IMG/VR virus record: IMGVR_UViG_3300027800_000021
Location: 1 to 47,465 of that record
DNA length: 47,465 bases
From: a virus
Reading direction: 5' to 3' (one strand)
Position 1 is the first letter of the stretch, and every line of letters starts with the position of its first letter. A program made the translations under genes and the position numbers. The notes below the pieces were generated by a model. That model searched no databases and had not been told where the DNA came from. It saw nothing but the letters and a program-made list of their open reading frames with translations. This document shows positions 2,612 to 7,597 of this stretch, piece after piece.

Positions 2612-2665
2612 AACCAGATACCAAAACGGGAGTCGAATCCAGGAGTCAAATCAGGGAGTCGAATC
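2604..2665. repeat. 13-bp-period direct repeats (GGGAGTCGAATC) beside attP
   Basis: Three copies of GGGAGTCGAATC or AGGAGTCAAATC at 2628-2639, 2641-2652 and 2654-2665, exactly 13 bp apart, preceded by a weaker copy (AGGAGTAAAAC) at 2604. They lie just outside the left arm-type integrase sites. Regular one-turn-plus spacing suggests a protein binding array such as an excisionase or bending-protein site. Every full copy contains two GANTC sites. Function is inference. Confidence 0.5.
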
Positions 2666-2687: not shown

Positions 2688-2711
2688 TTGGGGCAAAATT
2701 TGGGGCAAATT
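2688..2711. promoter_or_regulatory. Left arm-type integrase sites of attP (two repeats)
   Basis: TTGGGGCAAAATT (2688-2700) is followed after 12 bp by TTGGGGCAAATT (2700-2711). The same word recurs on the other side of the att core (2901-2920) and inverted at 2946-2958. Direct repeats on both sides of a core are what tyrosine integrase N-domains bind in phage attP sites. Confidence 0.6.
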
Positions 2712-2761: not shown

Positions 2762-2785
2762 GTTCGACTCCCCCCGCCTCCACCA
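2762..2785 (+). other. att core: 3' end of tmRNA (ssrA) or tRNA-Ala
   Basis: The 24 bases read as the T-loop (TTCGACT, 2763-2769), T-stem 3' strand, acceptor 3' strand (2775-2781), discriminator A and CCA of a tRNA-like RNA. A T at the position equivalent to U70 is expected for the G3-U70 pair of tmRNA or tRNA-Ala; the T-loop sequence favours tmRNA. No 5' part of the RNA precedes it, so this is an integration core, not a gene. P4-type integrases such as the one at 6210 use tRNA and tmRNA 3' ends. Confidence 0.65.
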
Positions 2786-2800
2786 AGCAACAATTTCAAC

Positions 2801-2843
2801 AAGTCCCGCAAGGTCCCAAAAGCCTTGCGGGACTTAGCTTTTT
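2801..2843 (+). terminator. Rho-independent terminator downstream of the att core
   Basis: A perfect 13-bp stem (AAGTCCCGCAAGG at 2801-2813 with its complement at 2823-2835), nine-base loop, then AGCTTTTT. Placed 16 bases after the tmRNA/tRNA 3' end, it would terminate the host RNA gene after integration, replacing the natural terminator that the phage displaces. Confidence 0.75.
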
Positions 2844-2900
2844 GGGTCGCAAAGTGTCCCCTTACGTCCCGCCATGTCCCTTGACATCCCGCGCATGTCG

Positions 2901-2958
2901 GGGGCAAAAATGGGGCAAAATCGTAAGGCGAGGCCCGGGAGGTGGAATTTTGCCCCAA
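2901..2958. promoter_or_regulatory. Right arm-type integrase sites of attP
   Basis: GGGGCAAAA occurs at 2901-2909 and 2912-2920, spaced 11 bp, in the same orientation as the left-arm pair. A third, inverted copy (complement TTGGGGCAAAATT) occupies 2946-2958 and overlaps the TTG start of the integrase relic; an identical copy lies at 6206-6218 over the start of the intact integrase. Between core and these sites runs a series of GTCCC or ATCCC words (2803-2890) that could be accessory sites. Confidence 0.5.
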
Positions 2959-2998
2959 CTAACCGAAGTGAAGCTCCGCTCGATCAAAGTCAGCGGCC
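2933..2998 (+). repeat. Duplicated integrase 5' end, copy A
   Basis: 66 bp match 6193-6258 at 63 positions (differences at 2969, 2988 and 2990), at an exact offset of 3260 bp. The copy includes the ribosome-binding site, TTG start and first 16 codons of the integrase. Confidence 0.85.
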
Positions 2999-3012
2999 CT
3001 TGGAACAGATAA
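2950..3012 (+). pseudogene. Integrase relic (20 codons)
   Basis: From the TTG at 2950 the frame reads MPQLTEVKLRSIKVSGPWNR and stops at TAA 3010-3012. The first 16 residues match the integrase at 6210 except for two valine substitutions; homology ends at residue 16. It keeps the AGGTGG ribosome-binding site. It probably marks where the integrase gene once began, next to attP, before the 3.26-kb segment arrived. It could also be retained as an integrase-binding part of attP. Confidence 0.7.
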
Positions 3013-3023
3013 GGGCATGACGT

Positions 3024-3052
3024 AAAAATGAAGGCCCGCGCTGGGCGGGCCT
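3024..3052 (-). terminator. Hairpin terminator of the 3084-5993 operon
   Basis: An 8-bp perfect stem (AGGCCCGC at 3032-3039 with GCGGGCCT at 3045-3052) and five-base loop. On the minus strand it is followed by TCATTTTT (complement of 3024-3031), a modest U-run. It sits about 30 bases after the stop of the last minus-strand gene. Confidence 0.6.
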
Positions 3053-3083
3053 GTGGTCTTTGACAAACTAGAATGTGTGCGTA

Positions 3084-3305
3084 TCAGTCCCCGGGCTCGG
3101 GCTCCGGGTCCGGGGACGCGGCGGGGTGCGCTGGTCGCCCGGGTTTGCCCGGAATGACGGCCAGTTCATCCGGGTCGAGGGCGTAGTCACGCCCGAATTT
3201 CGACACGCCCTTGATGCGGCCCTTGCGGATCAGCACGCGCAGGCGCTCGGGCGTGTAGCCGAGGCGCGCGGCGGCCTCGGCGGTAGTGATGAGGGCGGGG
3301 GTCAT
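3084..3305 (-). CDS. Small HTH DNA-binding protein (MerR/excisionase type)
   Basis: 73 residues starting MTPALITTAEAAARLGYTPE. Residues 6-50 show the excisionase-type winged helix: TTAEAAARLGYTPERLRVLIRKGRIKG is the helix-turn-helix, then a basic strand and YALDPDELAVI. The tail is proline- and acid-rich. The start at 3305 was chosen because it overlaps the stop of the upstream HTH gene by four bases (ATGA), giving translational coupling; the longer open frame upstream is arginine/proline-rich shadow sequence. Probably a regulator of this operon or an excisionase-like accessory factor; target unknown. Confidence 0.65.
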   Translation of the reverse strand: MTPALITTAEAAARLGYTPERLRVLIRKGRIKGVSKFGRDYALDPDELAVIPGKPGRPAHPAASPDPEPEPGD

Positions 3306-3721
3306 GCGGGCTCCTTGTTTTCGCGGCGGACGATTTCGGCGGCGATCAGGGCCGCGATCTCGCGCAGGCGCGCGGTGGTCATGCGGGGGATTTGCTGCTC
3401 GATGGGGGCCATGCGCGGGAACGGCGGGATGTCGTCGTTTGCGCGTTTGTCCCGCACGGCCTCGGCACTGCGGCCGATCAACAGGCCGACGTTGGCGTCG
3501 GTGTCGGTTCCCAACAGAGCTATCTCGTGGATTGTCCAGGGCGAGGCCTCGCCACCGGACCCGGCAGGAGGAATATGGCCCAGGGCGTCGGCGGGTATCT
3601 GCCAGTGCCCGGCGTCGGTGCGGACGGCTCCGGGAATTTTCCCGGCTGCGCATAAAAACCGGACGCGCACGTCGGTGACGCCGGTCTGGCGCGCGGCCTC
3701 GCGCGGGGTGAGGGTGGTCAT
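3302..3721 (-). CDS. HTH protein of unknown role
   Basis: 139 residues. The N-terminal 50 residues (MTTLTPREAARQTGVTDVRV, then a hydrophobic helix and HWQIPADAL) again resemble an excisionase/MerR-type winged helix. The rest has a second, SANT-like helical segment (EIALLGTDTDANVGLLIGRS and AVRDKRANDDIPPFP) that could also bind DNA, then an amphipathic C-terminal helix. It is fourth in a five-gene operon and is coupled to the next gene by an ATGA overlap. Two different HTH proteins at the end of one small operon suggest local control, but no specific function can be assigned. Confidence 0.65.
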   Translation of the reverse strand: MTTLTPREAARQTGVTDVRVRFLCAAGKIPGAVRTDAGHWQIPADALGHIPPAGSGGEASPWTIHEIALLGTDTDANVGLLIGRSAEAVRDKRANDDIPPFPRMAPIEQQIPRMTTARLREIAALIAAEIVRRENKEPA

Positions 3722-3730
3722 GCGGGCTCC

Positions 3731-4252
3731 TTAGCGTAATTTGTAGTAGGTGGAGACGGACAGCAACTCGTCGGCCTCGTGGCGTTCGATGGCCTGTATG
3801 GCCATGGTGTAGTCCACGGACGCAAACGGGGTGTTCAGTTGCTTGCGCAGGGTGGCTTTGAATTTCGCCACGGCCTCGGGATGCAGCCCCAGCAGACGGG
3901 AGCGTTGCAATATGGGGCCGTCGAGCAAAAACAGCATCAGGACGTTGGTTTCGGCCGACAGGTATTTTCCCATGCGGCTGTCCCGGTACAGCCGGGCGTT
4001 GACGTTGCACTCCAGGTATCCCAGGGGGTGCGGAAACTCGAAAATCCAGTAGGCCACGGGCACGGCGGTCTCCAGGGCGTCCAGGTAGGCGTACCCCAAC
4101 AGGCCGTCGCGGAACGCCTGGCGCTCCTTGGCCCGGCAGTTGGGGTATTGAATCAGCACGTTCGGATCGCCGTCCGGGCCGAACTCCATGAGCACGCCCT
4201 CGCGTTCGGGGTAGACGCCGGGGAACGGTTTGCCGCTCTCGTAGACGGGCAT
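3731..4252 (-). CDS. Conserved-looking hypothetical protein
   Basis: 173 residues beginning MPVYESGKPFPGVYPEREGV. I do not recognise the family. The protein is soluble, with aromatic-rich segments (AYWIFEFPHPLGYLECNVNA near the middle) and a helical C-terminal half (AVAKFKATLRKQLNTPFASV). No transmembrane segment or catalytic motif is evident. The ATG at 4252 was preferred to the longer frame because a GGAGG lies eight bases upstream, inside the end of the preceding gene, and because the upstream extension is arginine/proline-rich shadow sequence. It is the third gene of the operon. Confidence 0.6.
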   Translation of the reverse strand: MPVYESGKPFPGVYPEREGVLMEFGPDGDPNVLIQYPNCRAKERQAFRDGLLGYAYLDALETAVPVAYWIFEFPHPLGYLECNVNARLYRDSRMGKYLSAETNVLMLFLLDGPILQRSRLLGLHPEAVAKFKATLRKQLNTPFASVDYTMAIQAIERHEADELLSVSTYYKLR

Positions 4253-4254
4253 GG

Positions 4255-4518
4255 CTAATCCTCCAGGTCGCTGACGGTGGCGACAACCCTGCCGGTGACG
4301 CTCGTCAGGTACGAGTCGTCGCCCCGGACGGGGCGGAACACCTGGCCCCAGCGGGTGGACTGCGGCCCGCATTGGTTGCGGTCGTGGTCATCCTGCCAGT
4401 GGGCGCTGCGGCCGTAGGCCCGGCGCACGGCGCGGGTGATCGCCTCGTCGCGGTTGTCGGTGCGGTGGCGCGAGGTGTGCATGGTGTCGCGGCCGACGGT
4501 GATGGTGACGGTCAGCAT
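4255..4518 (-). CDS. Small hypothetical protein
   Basis: 87 residues, polar, with a beta-rich start (MLTVTITVGRDTMHTSRHRT), a basic helix (DEAITRAVRRAYG) and a beta-rich C-terminus ending in VSDLED. No family recognised. Its start overlaps the stop of the 493-residue protein by seven bases and its stop lies two bases before the next gene, so it is co-translated within the operon. Histidine- and arginine-rich composition could suit nucleic-acid contact, but that is speculation. Confidence 0.6.
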   Translation of the reverse strand: MLTVTITVGRDTMHTSRHRTDNRDEAITRAVRRAYGRSAHWQDDHDRNQCGPQSTRWGQVFRPVRGDDSYLTSVTGRVVATVSDLED

Positions 4519-5993
4519 GTGGAGGCCTCCTGTGTGGCGGTTTCGTCAGTGAGTTTCAGGGCGCGGCCTGCGGTCAGCACCTGGGCGGCCAGGGCGGCGT
4601 CGGCGGGGATGCGGCGGCCGATGGCCCCGGCTCCGCCGGTGCGGACGTTGTTGCGGGACCAGTCGTCGCCGTCCATGCCGTTGCACGAGACGGCCCACGC
4701 CCATTCTTCGCCCAGGACCAGGTAGCGGCCGGAGCCATAGATTTGGCCGCGCCGGTCGCGGTCGGACAGGTAGACAGTGATCCCGTCCGCGTGGTGGCTG
4801 CCCTGGGGGTATTCGCCTGCGGCTTCGATGCGGTCAAACGCCTGCCGCAGCACGGCCAGGCGCTCCCGGCGCTCGGCTTCCCGGGCGGCGCGTTCGGCCT
4901 CGGCGGTCTCGGCGGCGGTCGCTTCCTCGGACGTGGCCGGGCGGTAGGTCACGTCGCAGGCGTAGTCACCCTCGTGGCCTAAAAATTGCGATCCCATATA
5001 GGACGGCATGTCCTCGTCGATCTCGTACCGACGCCCGTAGCCGGTATAGACGATCCAGGACCTATCCGGGGCGCGCAGGGCCACGCCCAGGGGCGGGAGG
5101 TTGTCCGCGACAAACGCCCGGCTGGGGGCGCGCGGCGCGGCCGGTGCGGTCTCGCGTTCGGCGCGCAGGCGCTCCCGTTCCCGGCGTTCGACCTGCCGGG
5201 AATCGGCCAGGGCGGCCTTGGCGGCGGCGCGACGTTCGGTGGCCCGGGCCTGCTCGGCGGCGTCCTCGGCCACGTAGGGCGTGGCGGCCTCGATGACAAA
5301 ACGCAGGGTGTCGTAGGATTTTTGGTTGATGATCTTGAAATTCCAGGTCTTTGCGTGGGGGTCCCAGGCACCGCCGTTGACTTTGAACACGCGGATCGCG
5401 TCAGGTGAATAGATGCACGTCAGGCGGGCCGTGTCGCCGTAGCGGGTGACGGTGATGTGGGGAGTGGACAGGGTGGTGATGTCGGCCAGGGCGTCGGCCA
5501 CGGCGGCCGCGCCGTCCACGGCCCGGGCCACGGCCCTGTCGAGCACGCCGCGCAGGCGTCCGGCCAAGTGCGGCAGGACGCGCCAGGCCGTGCTGTCGTA
5601 GTCGAATTCGGCGCCGATGCGCTTGAGCGGGGCCTGCTTGCCGTAGGGGCAGGCCACCAGGTAGCTGCCGTCGTCTTGGCTGGAGACGGCGAAGTGGCCG
5701 TATGCGCCGTCGCTGATGGGCACGACGCGCGGCGTGCCGGTGTAGGCCCGCGCCCACTCCAGGGCGGCCTGGAGCGCGTCGTAGTCGGTGTGCACGGGGT
5801 TGTGCCGCCAGCGCAGGGGCGCGTCGGATTTGGCGTGGAAGCCTGCGGCGGTAAGCAGTTTTTGCCAGGCGCGCTCGTCGTGCAGCTCGCGCGTGGGGTA
5901 CAGGATCACCTGGGGCCGTACGCCCTCGGGGCGCTCGACGCGCAGGTGCGCGCCGATTTGGCCGGTGGGGATATCGTCCAGGGTGGCGGGCAT
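4512..5993 (-). CDS. HARP-like repeat protein of unknown function, first gene of the attP-int cassette
   Basis: 493 residues. Residues 190-238 (IYSPDAIRVFKVNGGAWDPH and TWNFKI) resemble the HARP module of SMARCAL1-type proteins, which binds branched DNA; residues 121-152 (IGAEFDYDSTAWRVLPHLAG) may be a divergent first copy. Two charged Arg/Glu/Ala helices likely to form coiled coils follow at 240-285 and 355-395. A C-terminal domain has a YLVLGEEWAWAVSCNGMDGD segment. No ATPase motif is present, so it is not a full annealing helicase. It begins 45 bases from a TTGACA promoter element and heads an operon of five genes. The HARP assignment is a resemblance judged by eye. Confidence 0.6.
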   Translation of the reverse strand: MPATLDDIPTGQIGAHLRVERPEGVRPQVILYPTRELHDERAWQKLLTAAGFHAKSDAPLRWRHNPVHTDYDALQAALEWARAYTGTPRVVPISDGAYGHFAVSSQDDGSYLVACPYGKQAPLKRIGAEFDYDSTAWRVLPHLAGRLRGVLDRAVARAVDGAAAVADALADITTLSTPHITVTRYGDTARLTCIYSPDAIRVFKVNGGAWDPHAKTWNFKIINQKSYDTLRFVIEAATPYVAEDAAEQARATERRAAAKAALADSRQVERRERERLRAERETAPAAPRAPSRAFVADNLPPLGVALRAPDRSWIVYTGYGRRYEIDEDMPSYMGSQFLGHEGDYACDVTYRPATSEEATAAETAEAERAAREAERRERLAVLRQAFDRIEAAGEYPQGSHHADGITVYLSDRDRRGQIYGSGRYLVLGEEWAWAVSCNGMDGDDWSRNNVRTGGAGAIGRRIPADAALAAQVLTAGRALKLTDETATQEASTC

Positions 5994-6034
5994 GGTATTT
6001 TTCCTGTTTTTTGGCCCGGGCCGATTCCCGTTCG

Positions 6035-6081
6035 CCGTTGATTTAATAGATACACATACAAACTAGGTTTGTCAACAAACC
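6035..6081 (-). promoter_or_regulatory. Promoter and operator palindrome of the minus-strand cassette
   Basis: GGTTTGT-CA-ACAAACC (6066-6081) is a perfect 7-bp inverted repeat. On the minus strand its centre reads TTGACA, an ideal -35 hexamer, followed after 17 bases by TATCTA and an AT-rich stretch that may act as -10. A dimeric repressor bound here would block the promoter directly. The start codon of the 493-residue gene is at 5993. Confidence 0.55.
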
Positions 6082-6144
6082 AAGATAAAAATAAGCCGAG
6101 GGATATCCATAGGATATGCAGTAGTCGCAAGAAAAATATCAGAC

Positions 6145-6196
6145 GGGCGTCACCTATCGTCCACGCCGTCGACGGTGTGGACGATAGGTGACGCCC
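6145..6196. repeat. 52-bp near-perfect palindrome upstream of integrase
   Basis: GGGCGTCACCTATCGTCCAC (6145-6164) is the exact reverse complement of 6177-6196. The centre CCGTC/GACGG continues the symmetry, with one mismatch at 6165/6176. It ends two bases before the integrase ribosome-binding site. There is no T-run on either side, so it is not an ordinary terminator. It is absent from the equivalent position upstream of the integrase relic at 2933. Confidence 0.85.
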
Positions 6197-6258
6197 GGGA
6201 GGTGGAATTTTGCCCCAACTAACCGAAGCGAAGCTCCGCTCGATCAAGGCCAGCGGCC
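6193..6258 (+). repeat. Duplicated integrase 5' end, copy B (functional gene)
   Basis: Partner of 2933-2998 (63 of 66 identical). Its left edge coincides with the right arm of the 52-bp palindrome. Confidence 0.85.
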
Positions 6259-7415
6259 GCATTGAGCGCGTCCACGACAGCGCAGGCCTATACCTCGAAT
6301 TGAGCGCGGCGGGCGGGAAGCACTGGCGATTCAAGTACAAATTTGACGGCAAGGAAAAGCGGTTGTCCTTTGGAGCCTGGCCCGAGGTGTCCCTGAAAGA
6401 GGCCCGGCAGAAACGCGACGACGCCCGGGCCATGGTGGCCAAGGGCATTGACCCTGGCCAGGAACTGAAGCGCAGCCGGGACAATGCGGCGGGCGTCGTC
6501 ACCTTCCAGGCCCTGGCGGAGGAATATGTCGGGAACCAGAAAAACGTGTGGGCGGAAAGCCACACCGTCACCGTCGAAGGCCGGTTGCGGCTCGACGTCT
6601 ATCCGCGCATCGGGGATAGGCCGATCACGGAGATCGAGCCGACGGACATCCTGGCCATCTTGCGGGGGATCGAGGCGCGCCGGGCCTTCGAGACGGCAAG
6701 CCGGGTCCTGGGCGTGTGCTCGCTGATCTTCCGCTACGGGGTGGCCGTCGGCGTTGTGAAATCAGATCCCTGCCGGGACCTGCGCGGGGCGCTGGTGCCG
6801 TTCCAGCACGGCCAGCACGCCGCCCTGACGCGGCCCAGGGATGTCGGCGCGTTTATGCTGGCCATTGACGACTACAAGGGGTCTGCGGTCGTTCGGGCCG
6901 CCCTGGCCTTTTCCGCGCTCACGTTTTGCAGGCCTGGCGAGATCCGGCATGCCGAATGGTGCGAGATCGATTTTGCTACGGAAGAATGGACGGTCCCGGC
7001 AGCCAAAATGAAAACGAGGGTGGAGCACCGTGTGCCGCTTTCGCGGCAGGCGGTGGATGTCCTGACGTGGATCCAGCCGCTGACGGGTTCGGGCCGGTAT
7101 GTGTTTCCGGGGCCCAGGGGAAAGGATCGGCCGCTCTCCGAAAACGGCGTCAACGCGGCGATTCGGAGCATGGGGTACGGCAAGGACCAGATGACGGCGC
7201 ATGGGTTTCGGGCCATGGCCTCCACCCTGCTGAACGAACGTGGCCACCGGCCGGACGTGATCGAGGCCCAGCTTGCCCACAAGGGGACGGACAAGATCCG
7301 GGCCATCTACAATCGGGCGCAGTATTTGGAGGAGCGGCGACAGTTGATGCAGGCATGGGCGGATTACCTGGACGAACTGCGAGCATTATCCGTCAACGGT
7401 TCGTCGGGCAATTGA
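6210..7415 (+). CDS. int: P4-family tyrosine site-specific integrase
   Basis: 401 residues. The N-terminal 90 residues (KLRSIKASGRIERVHDSAGL, then WRFKYKFDGKEKRLSFG) are the DUF4102 arm-type DNA-binding domain of P4-type integrases, followed by a core-binding domain and a catalytic domain with CRPGEIRHAEW (first Arg), HGFR (His and second Arg) and a C-terminal IYNRAQY carrying the Tyr nucleophile. It would recombine attP with the 3' end of a tmRNA or tRNA gene. The start is TTG with AGGTGG seven bases upstream. An arm-type site covers the start codon, suggesting autoregulation. Its 3' end overlaps the convergent excisionase gene by 52 bases. Confidence 0.95.
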   Translation: MPQLTEAKLRSIKASGRIERVHDSAGLYLELSAAGGKHWRFKYKFDGKEKRLSFGAWPEVSLKEARQKRDDARAMVAKGIDPGQELKRSRDNAAGVVTFQALAEEYVGNQKNVWAESHTVTVEGRLRLDVYPRIGDRPITEIEPTDILAILRGIEARRAFETASRVLGVCSLIFRYGVAVGVVKSDPCRDLRGALVPFQHGQHAALTRPRDVGAFMLAIDDYKGSAVVRAALAFSALTFCRPGEIRHAEWCEIDFATEEWTVPAAKMKTRVEHRVPLSRQAVDVLTWIQPLTGSGRYVFPGPRGKDRPLSENGVNAAIRSMGYGKDQMTAHGFRAMASTLLNERGHRPDVIEAQLAHKGTDKIRAIYNRAQYLEERRQLMQAWADYLDELRALSVNGSSGN

Positions 7416-7597
7416 TCATATAGACCCTGTAAATCTGCGAGCCGCCAGACGGGCGTCCCTCCCAGGTAGCGTTGCTTGGGGATGATGCCACGTTGGACGT
7501 ACCGGTAAAATGTCGATCGCGGCATGTTGTTCAGATACGCCCGGGTCTCTTTCGCGCCCAGGAGACGGTTCCCGTCGTGCATCAGTTCGAGTGTCAT
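7364..7597 (-). CDS. Excisionase/AlpA-like HTH protein
   Basis: 77 residues. LLGAKETRAYLNNMPRSTFY-R-YVQRGIIPK is the recognition helix-turn-helix and QRYLGGTPVWRLADLQGLYD the wing, the standard layout of AlpA and excisionase proteins. These bind near att sites to favour excision or activate int. It lies tail-to-tail with int, overlapping by 52 bases. A GGAG lies about 12 bases before the ATG. It is the last gene of the long minus-strand early operon, so excisionase would be made on induction while int has its own transcript from the other strand. Confidence 0.75.
   Translation of the reverse strand: MTLELMHDGNRLLGAKETRAYLNNMPRSTFYRYVQRGIIPKQRYLGGTPVWRLADLQGLYDQLPDEPLTDNARSSSR

Follow-up and report, generated by a model that had tools for sequence, protein, structure and literature searches.

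An accessory operon at the attP-integrase junction of a temperate Desulfovibrionaceae phage, bounded by a duplicated integrase start

The window analyzed here, a viral contig of 47,465 nucleotides, belongs to a temperate tailed phage of the Desulfovibrionaceae with its own terminase and portal, and it carries a five-gene minus-strand operon between attP and the integrase gene (int). The explanation we favor, and consider reasonably probable, is that an acquired accessory operon was inserted where attP and int overlap, that a 66-bp duplication kept both, and that the operon combines an Aca-like frame with anti-defence or early-DNA cargo.

The duplication of the integrase start described in the first-pass annotation was reproduced exactly: positions 2933-2998 (+) and 6193-6258 (+) are identical at 63 of 66 positions with a start-to-start spacing of 3260 bp, the mismatches are confined to 2969/6229, 2988/6248, and 2990/6250, and the longest exact run common to both copies is 36 nt. 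Within the duplicated segment lie the RBS (GGAGGTGG) and the opening 16 codons, beginning with the TTG start, of int (6210..7415, +), which encodes a tyrosine integrase with Arm-DNA-bind_3, Phage_int_M, and Phage_integrase domains. The right copy provides the RBS and start of the functional integrase and holds an arm-type site at 6208-6216; in the left copy, the reading frame meets a stop after 19 codons, and an inverted arm-type site predicted from repeats (TTTTGCCCC) lies at 2948-2956. The copies match each other at 46 of 49 positions, and either matches the nearest relatives (L007 and L009) at 42-45 of 49, so this is a true duplication within the lineage of the window phage; the closer likeness of the copies to each other led us to reject recombination between two diverged int lineages. 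Since lineage-specific bases are common to both, the start was duplicated from the phage's own int, which does not support the earlier proposal of a joint arrival of the operon with a new copy of that start.

Comparison with relatives supports the view, also put forward earlier, that the cassette is an insertion that displaced the original attP-int junction. In 95 related integrase loci, the gap from the tRNA or tmRNA gene to int measures 147-281 bp in 91 and 585-670 bp in the other 4, and in the junctions of L021 and L022 the RNA gene, arms, and int are contiguous. In the window, the attP core is 163 bp from the left copy and 3423 bp from the real int. The cassette has a GC content of 67.4% (62.8% for the phage) and a tetranucleotide composition that is extreme for the phage, being matched by 1 of 77 same-size windows. 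We looked for the five genes as a fixed part of the module, the case named beforehand as speaking against an insertion, and they were absent from every relative with a visible slot. The cassette is carried by one contig; for the closest phages (L007-L009), the provirus records are cut off where int begins and do not include the slot.

The attP core (2762..2787, +) is the 3' end of a tmRNA/tRNA (GTTCGACTCCCCCCGCCTCCACCA), as judged by blastn of 2762-2975, which matched the tmRNA-int junction of L021 and L022. A terminator-like hairpin (2801..2835, +) directly follows the core, and these relatives also have one after the RNA gene. On the P side lie three GGGAGTCGAATC-type repeats with 13-bp spacing (2628..2665, +), candidate accessory or excision sites, and the predicted P-arm arm-type sites (2690..2710, +), consisting of GGGGCAAAA and the near-copy GGGGCAAAT; two predicted P'-arm sites GGGGCAAAA are found 11 bp apart at 2901..2920 (+). 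Five of the six exact occurrences of GGGGCAAAA in the 47 kb fall at attP or at a copy of the int start, against 0.9 expected. On the strength of these repeats, we regard the arm-type sites as candidate Int-binding sites. A TTGACA -35 hexamer at 2881..2886 (+), 69 nt before the left int start, presumably marks the native int promoter, now 3.3 kb from int; an exact TTGACA occurs upstream of int in 44 of 107 relatives, mostly at -62 to -82 (1.6 expected). With an RNA-gene 3' end as core, arm repeats, and int downstream in the same direction, the window fits an Arm-DNA-bind_3 integrase module at a tmRNA or tRNA gene.

Across about 100 relatives, the arm-type repeats tend to recur, inverted, across the int start, and this start-site motif co-varies with them from relative to relative; both observations are new here. 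An inverted self-match of at least 8 nt between arm motif and int start was present in 66 of 102 loci, compared with at most 27 across 10,000 permutations. In a positional test, a motif copy lay near the int start in 52 of 84 loci, and in 46 of these it fell at -11 to +3, against a null mean of 18 and a null maximum of 26; about one third of the relatives had no start-site copy by the tests used. A scan of viral contigs for the arm-site plus start pattern gave no match, and the int-start pattern recovered six trimmed provirus records and nothing else. An int start inside an inverted arm-type site means that attP and int overlap, and therefore that any insertion leaving both functional must duplicate the overlap. 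This explains the need for some duplication and not its exact ends, because the arm site accounts for 9 bp of the 66 bp duplicated.

Each of the five minus-strand ORFs of the operon has an SD-like leader, and their GC3 is 0.83-0.95. P0001 (4512..5993, 493 aa) contains a HARP-like segment at 195-221 and a C-terminal domain (NGMDGDDWSRNN...GGAGAIG) common to phage polyvalent-type proteins; P0002 (4255..4518, 87 aa) had no relatives in our searches; and P0003 (3731..4252, 173 aa) is PHROG 12389-like with a 44% homologue in L177. P0004 (3302..3721, 139 aa) is an HTH_17 protein, 77-78% identical in prophage L183, whose second segment matches phage homing endonuclease records, and the terminal gene P0005 (3084..3305, 73 aa) encodes an HTH_17 or excisionase-like protein conserved in L183. 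Of the five genes initially described as unrecognised, two, P0004 and P0005, are recognisable as HTH_17/excisionase-like DNA-binding proteins.

Searches of PHROGs, Pfam, and PADLOC assigned the cargo to no informative family, a PDB sequence search returned nothing, and we found no known Acr in the operon. P0001 was not found in 288 Desulfovibrionaceae genomes or in phages and had one weak match in plasmids; no enzymatic domain was found in its 493 aa, and fold searches with its AlphaFold model (pLDDT 57, partly confident) were empty, with neither a solved nor a predicted structural relative. The model of P0003 (pLDDT 38) was unusable, and searches of viral contigs for P0003 and P0004 found none. 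PADLOC models gave no convincing match to the cassette proteins; a HORMA match to P0001 (E 7e-4, 17 bits) and matches to T7 tail fibre were rejected as composition or coiled-coil noise.

The operon was said to have its own promoter, operator, and terminator together with a palindrome, and this stood up. A rho-independent terminator lies at 3032..3052 (-), the leader CAACGGCGAACGGGAATCGGCCCGGG at 6013..6041 (-) is conserved in L183, and a candidate operator/promoter at 6058..6081 comprises the inverted repeats ACAAACTAGGTTTGT (6058-6072) and GGTTTGTCAACAAACC (6066-6081) with a perfect minus-strand TTGACA -35 inside them; a generic promoter scan did not find the operon promoter. A further inverted repeat (ATATCCATAGGATAT) is at 6103..6117. 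The right copy is abutted by a 54-bp near-perfect palindrome (6144..6197) with 27-nt arms that are 96% complementary, predicted to form a hairpin in the int mRNA leader; leader folding gave z = -7.5, and 0.12 matches to the palindrome half-site were expected by chance. Viral contigs scanned for exact copies of the palindrome had none, and an Rfam mir-3190 match was just this palindrome. No good int promoter is visible within the cassette, where the one -35 found was TTGTCA at 6069.

Prophage L183 carries a second operon with the same promoter-leader and 3' HTH pair and with five unrelated cargo genes between them. P0004 (77%) and P0005 (58%) are conserved in the same order, as are the terminator, TTGACAAACC, and the leader, and the TTGACA and core-promoter inverted repeat recur, the latter partly conserved (ACAAACctaGTTTGT in the window, ACAAACcacGTTTtT in L183). 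A tblastn search of P0001-P0003 against the L183 cargo showed no relation. The exact leader occurred in G046 only among the 288 genomes; leader matches with 3 mismatches in G138, G250, and G279 came without the promoter and HTH genes and were discarded. Based on these two operons, the operon looks modular, with a fixed frame and differing cargo.

This organization resembles acr-aca operons, in which the inverted repeat lies inside the core promoter (PMC9410906). In the window, the repeats at 6058-6072 and 6066-6081 overlap TTGACA, the last two genes are HTH regulators (as in L183) in an operon of mostly small genes of no known family that ends in a terminator, and cargo varies across the two operons while regulator and promoter stay. 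The window differs in having an HTH_17/MerR-like pair in place of a tested Aca family and in its first gene, since P0001, with 493 aa, exceeds typical Acr proteins in size. The best models for P0004 and P0005 were HTH_17 and excise, in libraries without Aca models as such, and we know of no Aca type described as HTH_17. In KplE1, attL overlaps the int promoter and int is negatively autoregulated (PMC2951348); the window shares the RNA gene, arm sites, int promoter, and int overlapping in one direction, whereas here a cassette of 3.2 kb divides the overlap and separates int from its native promoter. The likening to a P4-type cargo slot fits in part: as in P4-like satellite and P2-like prophage defence hotspots, variable cargo lies near the integrase of a temperate element, but P4 cargo sits between psu and int (PMC9122126), and here it lies between attP and int of a tailed phage, with no defence gene recognised. 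Polyvalent proteins, which occur in phages and conjugative elements, combine several disparate domains in a long polypeptide that is injected along with the DNA. P0001 shares its C-terminal domain and HARP/DUF5710-like segments with large phage proteins (L153 and L163), one of which (L153) has the LPD38 polyvalent domain, whereas P0001 itself stands alone as a short version encoded within a regulated operon; the polyvalent-protein survey makes no mention of HARP.

Other readings were weighed against this one. The cassette could serve mainly to control integration and excision, with the two HTH proteins and the palindrome acting on int and attP, in keeping with the palindrome and inverted repeats just upstream of int and with matches of P0004 and P0005 to excisionase-type models (TIGR01764, E 5e-4 and 1e-4; phrog_2655, E 1.4e-4). 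We find this unlikely, as these scores fall under the curated cut-off, an excisionase-like gene (7364-7597) already adjoins int in a stretch common to L007-L009, and the same HTH pair closes the operon in L183, where the surrounding 20 kb that we read contained no related integrase. A small non-autonomous element targeting the int start and moved by the phage Int, with the 66-bp repeats as attL and attR, would account for direct repeats that contain an arm-type site and for a cassette with no recombinase. However, the repeats contain no recognisable core-type site, neither the cassette genes nor the palindrome recurred in viral contigs, and blastn of the window found no int-start repeat around the L183 operon, which makes this reading quite improbable.

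Illegitimate recombination could instead have duplicated the int start by chance and brought in selfish or neutral genes of no benefit, a moron; most cargo genes lack a described family, the instance is single, and three substitutions between the copies imply a fairly recent event. Each of the five ORFs is intact and strongly codon-biased, however, and retention of the frame with different cargo in another prophage points to selection on the module, so that we doubt this reading. That the source is a metagenomic contig raises the prospect of two phages joined at a repeat by the assembly, which we judge very improbable: both flanks and the two cassette junctions fit one insertion, and the copies share no exact run beyond 36 nt, whereas metagenome assemblies commonly finish with longer k-mers.

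We therefore return to insertion at the attP-int overlap. We hypothesize that a horizontally acquired accessory operon entered the attP-int junction of a phage in whose integrase family the start of int would be a third, inverted arm-type site of attP, and that duplication of the 66-bp overlap allowed the insertion to persist, with a complete attP arm preserved by the left copy and the RBS and start of int by the right copy. Overlapping the arm sites, the native int promoter would be expected to be subject to repression by Int; it would now be stranded upstream, so that int would now have to be transcribed from the divergent control region of the cassette. The fixed frame would comprise a promoter with operator, a leader, two 3' HTH genes, and a terminator, into which cargo could be swapped. 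By analogy with Aca proteins, the terminal HTH protein or proteins probably repress the operon promoter. The cargo, a HARP-like/polyvalent-type predicted DNA-binding protein and two proteins without an assigned role, would most likely be expressed in a burst after DNA entry and act on host defence or early phage DNA; the defence or counter-defence role suggested by the first-pass annotation is supported by analogy only.

To our knowledge, few anti-defence genes are known in phages of the Desulfovibrionaceae, and the conserved promoter-leader and HTH pair may serve as bait for further cargo genes in them. More tentatively, the operon may represent an undescribed family of modular anti-defence operons in sulfate-reducer phages, with an Aca-like promoter-leader and an HTH_17-type pair, that captured integrase control by splitting the attP-int overlap; if so, entry-phase counter-defence and the integration decision would come under one regulator. 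Seen in many of about 100 loci, the arm site at the start codon could be tested as a general feature of integrase control, and its duplication would be a concrete rule for how cargo enters the most constrained part of a temperate phage in a widespread integrase family.

The start of the integrase gene (int) occurs twice in the window, as the first-pass annotation had correctly located: positions 2933-2998, near attP, and 6193-6258, at the start of the functional int (6210-7415, plus strand), are identical at 63 of 66 positions at a spacing of 3260 bp, the longest mismatch-free stretch being 36 nt. The repeat spans the int RBS, its TTG start codon and codons 1-16; int encodes a tyrosine integrase of 401 aa (Arm-DNA-bind_3, E 6e-24; Phage_int_M, E 1e-28; Phage_integrase, E 8e-20). 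In the left copy, likeness to int stops after 16 codons and the frame closes after 19, ending in VSGPWNR and a stop. The two copies have 46 of 49 coding bases in common, while each shares 42-45 with two of the closest phages (L007 and L009, provirus records trimmed at the int start). Both copies thus descend from a single int start in this phage lineage, and the proposal that a new int start arrived together with the operon is therefore not favored.

The 47-kb window encodes a gpA-type terminase, a lambda-type portal and an S24-type repressor, and it looks circularly permuted since tail genes run off both ends. Because the attP core (2762-2787), which is the 3' end of a tmRNA/tRNA, lies inside this record, and because a sister record (G007, 81-91% matches, trimmed at gene ends) extends from int as far as the stop codon of the methylase (2611), the window is most likely a free or excised phage form with its attP junction intact. 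Just before attP, at 1684-2611, a Com-like zinc ribbon (PF10122, E 2e-24) overlaps an N6/N4 DNA methylase gene, so that Com is paired here with a methylase, not with Mom. Three 12-13 bp repeats at 2628-2665 are complementary to that part of the attP core which corresponds to the T-loop.

Solidesulfovibrio aerotolerans and a Desulfovibrio MAG, with integrases 76 and 73% identical to that of the window, carry the order tmRNA, terminator-like hairpin, two copies of GGGGCAAAA and int, without the cassette. An RNA gene lies upstream of int in 95 of 108 integrase loci from many phyla, at a gap of 147-281 bp in 91 and 585-670 bp in 4. The core-to-left-copy distance of 163 bp matches this spacing and int itself is 3423 bp from the core, so the left copy is the original int start, and displacement of the original attP-int junction, also proposed at first pass, holds. 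TTGACA stands at -69 relative to the left copy; the exact hexamer recurs in 44 of the 107 loci compared, usually between -62 and -82 (1.6 expected), and the native int promoter is thus probably stranded away from int. In all four relatives with the longer gap (L115, L116, L056 and L099), the gap holds a gene, overlapping or adjoining the int start, for a free-standing arm-binding domain (~125-160 aa), confirmed as Arm-DNA-bind_3 in L116, L099 and L115 (E 2e-25 to 2e-20) and read by eye only in L056; its product is a candidate Int competitor or autoregulator.

Predicted arm-type repeats GGGGCAAAA flank the attP core, at 2690 on its P side and at 2901 and 2912 on the other, and an inverted copy, TTTTGCCCC, covers the int start. 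Repeat and inverted copy co-vary in relatives, being GGGGGCAT and ATGCCCCC in three loci (L109, L111, L112) and GGGGGTACA and TGTACCCCC in L117. A self match of at least 8 nt was present in 66 of 102 loci, with a maximum of 27 in 10,000 permutations. Defining the motif independently, we found an inverted copy close to the start in 52 of the 84 loci that have paired direct repeats, and in 46 of these it lay at -11 to +3; motif swapping between loci gave 18 on average and at most 26; these start-motif counts are somewhat inflated by related sequences, although the motif families come from several phyla. Across ~100 loci, the int start thus tends to fall in an inverted predicted arm-type site whose sequence varies along with the upstream repeats. 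A brief literature search found no statement of this as a general rule; in KplE1 the att region overlaps the int promoter, with negative autoregulation (PMC2951348). With such a site over the int start, attP and int would share sequence, and an insertion preserving both must therefore duplicate the shared part.

The segment between the copies has five ORFs on the minus strand (P0001-P0005), all preceded by an SD-like leader and with a GC3 of 0.83-0.95, as well as a terminator (3052-3032, minus strand) and a 54-bp palindrome (6144-6197) that adjoins the right copy and recurs neither elsewhere in the window nor in viral contigs. The cassette is foreign in make-up (GC 67.4 versus 62.8%; 1 of 77 same-size windows as extreme in tetranucleotide profile).

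The terminal genes, P0004 and P0005, encode an HTH_17/excisionase-like pair. Among 348 genomes of the order, P0004 has a homologue (78%) in G046 only, where homologues of both genes are again the last two of an operon (L183), which follows tail genes, and precede a terminator. The upstream region is kept as TTGACAAACC and CAACGGCGnACGGGAATCnGCCCGGG, with an exact leader match only in G046 among 288 genomes, and the core promoters carry inverted repeats, ACAAACctaGTTTGT in the window and ACAAACcacGTTTtT in L183. Between these conserved ends L183 has five cargo genes with no relationship to P0001-P0003; they are essentially unknown, one matching a PHROG of unknown function and another giving a marginal match. 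Judged from two operons, with the cassette on one contig, the operon appears to be a module with a fixed frame and swapped cargo. This layout, together with the core-promoter repeats and terminal HTH gene, is that of acr-aca operons (PMC9410906); by analogy the operon probably works like one, and we do not claim that it is one. Anti-defence genes have been discovered through the conservation of regulatory sequence (PMC11065993).

P0001 (493 aa) had no homologue in 288 Desulfovibrionaceae genomes; it has a HARP-like segment below cut-off (E 0.03) and a C-terminal domain with NGMDGDDWSRNN...GGAGAIG. Since a relative with the same layout (L144) has a significant HARP domain (E 5e-12), and large phage proteins with this C-terminal domain carry DUF5710 (L153, L163) and in one case LPD38, its relatives suggest a polyvalent-type DNA-binding protein (PMC5512222). 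In a phage family (L003-L006, L143-L169), the domain NGMDGDDWS.NN..TGGAGAIG is either free-standing or embedded in very large proteins that also carry HARP, DUF5710 or LPD38. No relatives of P0002 were found. A 44% homologue of P0003 closes an operon of L177 (9426-13941 in that locus), behind genes for ParB-like and PAPS-reductase-like (DUF3440-related) proteins and an SNF2 helicase; an acetyltransferase-like protein is also encoded there, and the operon is possibly a DNA-modification or host-takeover set. Counter-defence or early DNA protection is, tentatively and by analogy, the likeliest single reading of the cargo.

The sequence comparisons establish the anatomy, ancestral spacing, co-variation and module conservation. 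In the mechanism that we propose, the operon promoter would fire after DNA entry and the cargo would be made, whereupon P0004/P0005 would shut the promoter off via the 6058-6081 repeats. Severed from its native promoter, int would be read from a putative promoter in the divergent region (6082-6209), and its expression may be tuned there by a second inverted repeat and a hairpin beside the RBS.
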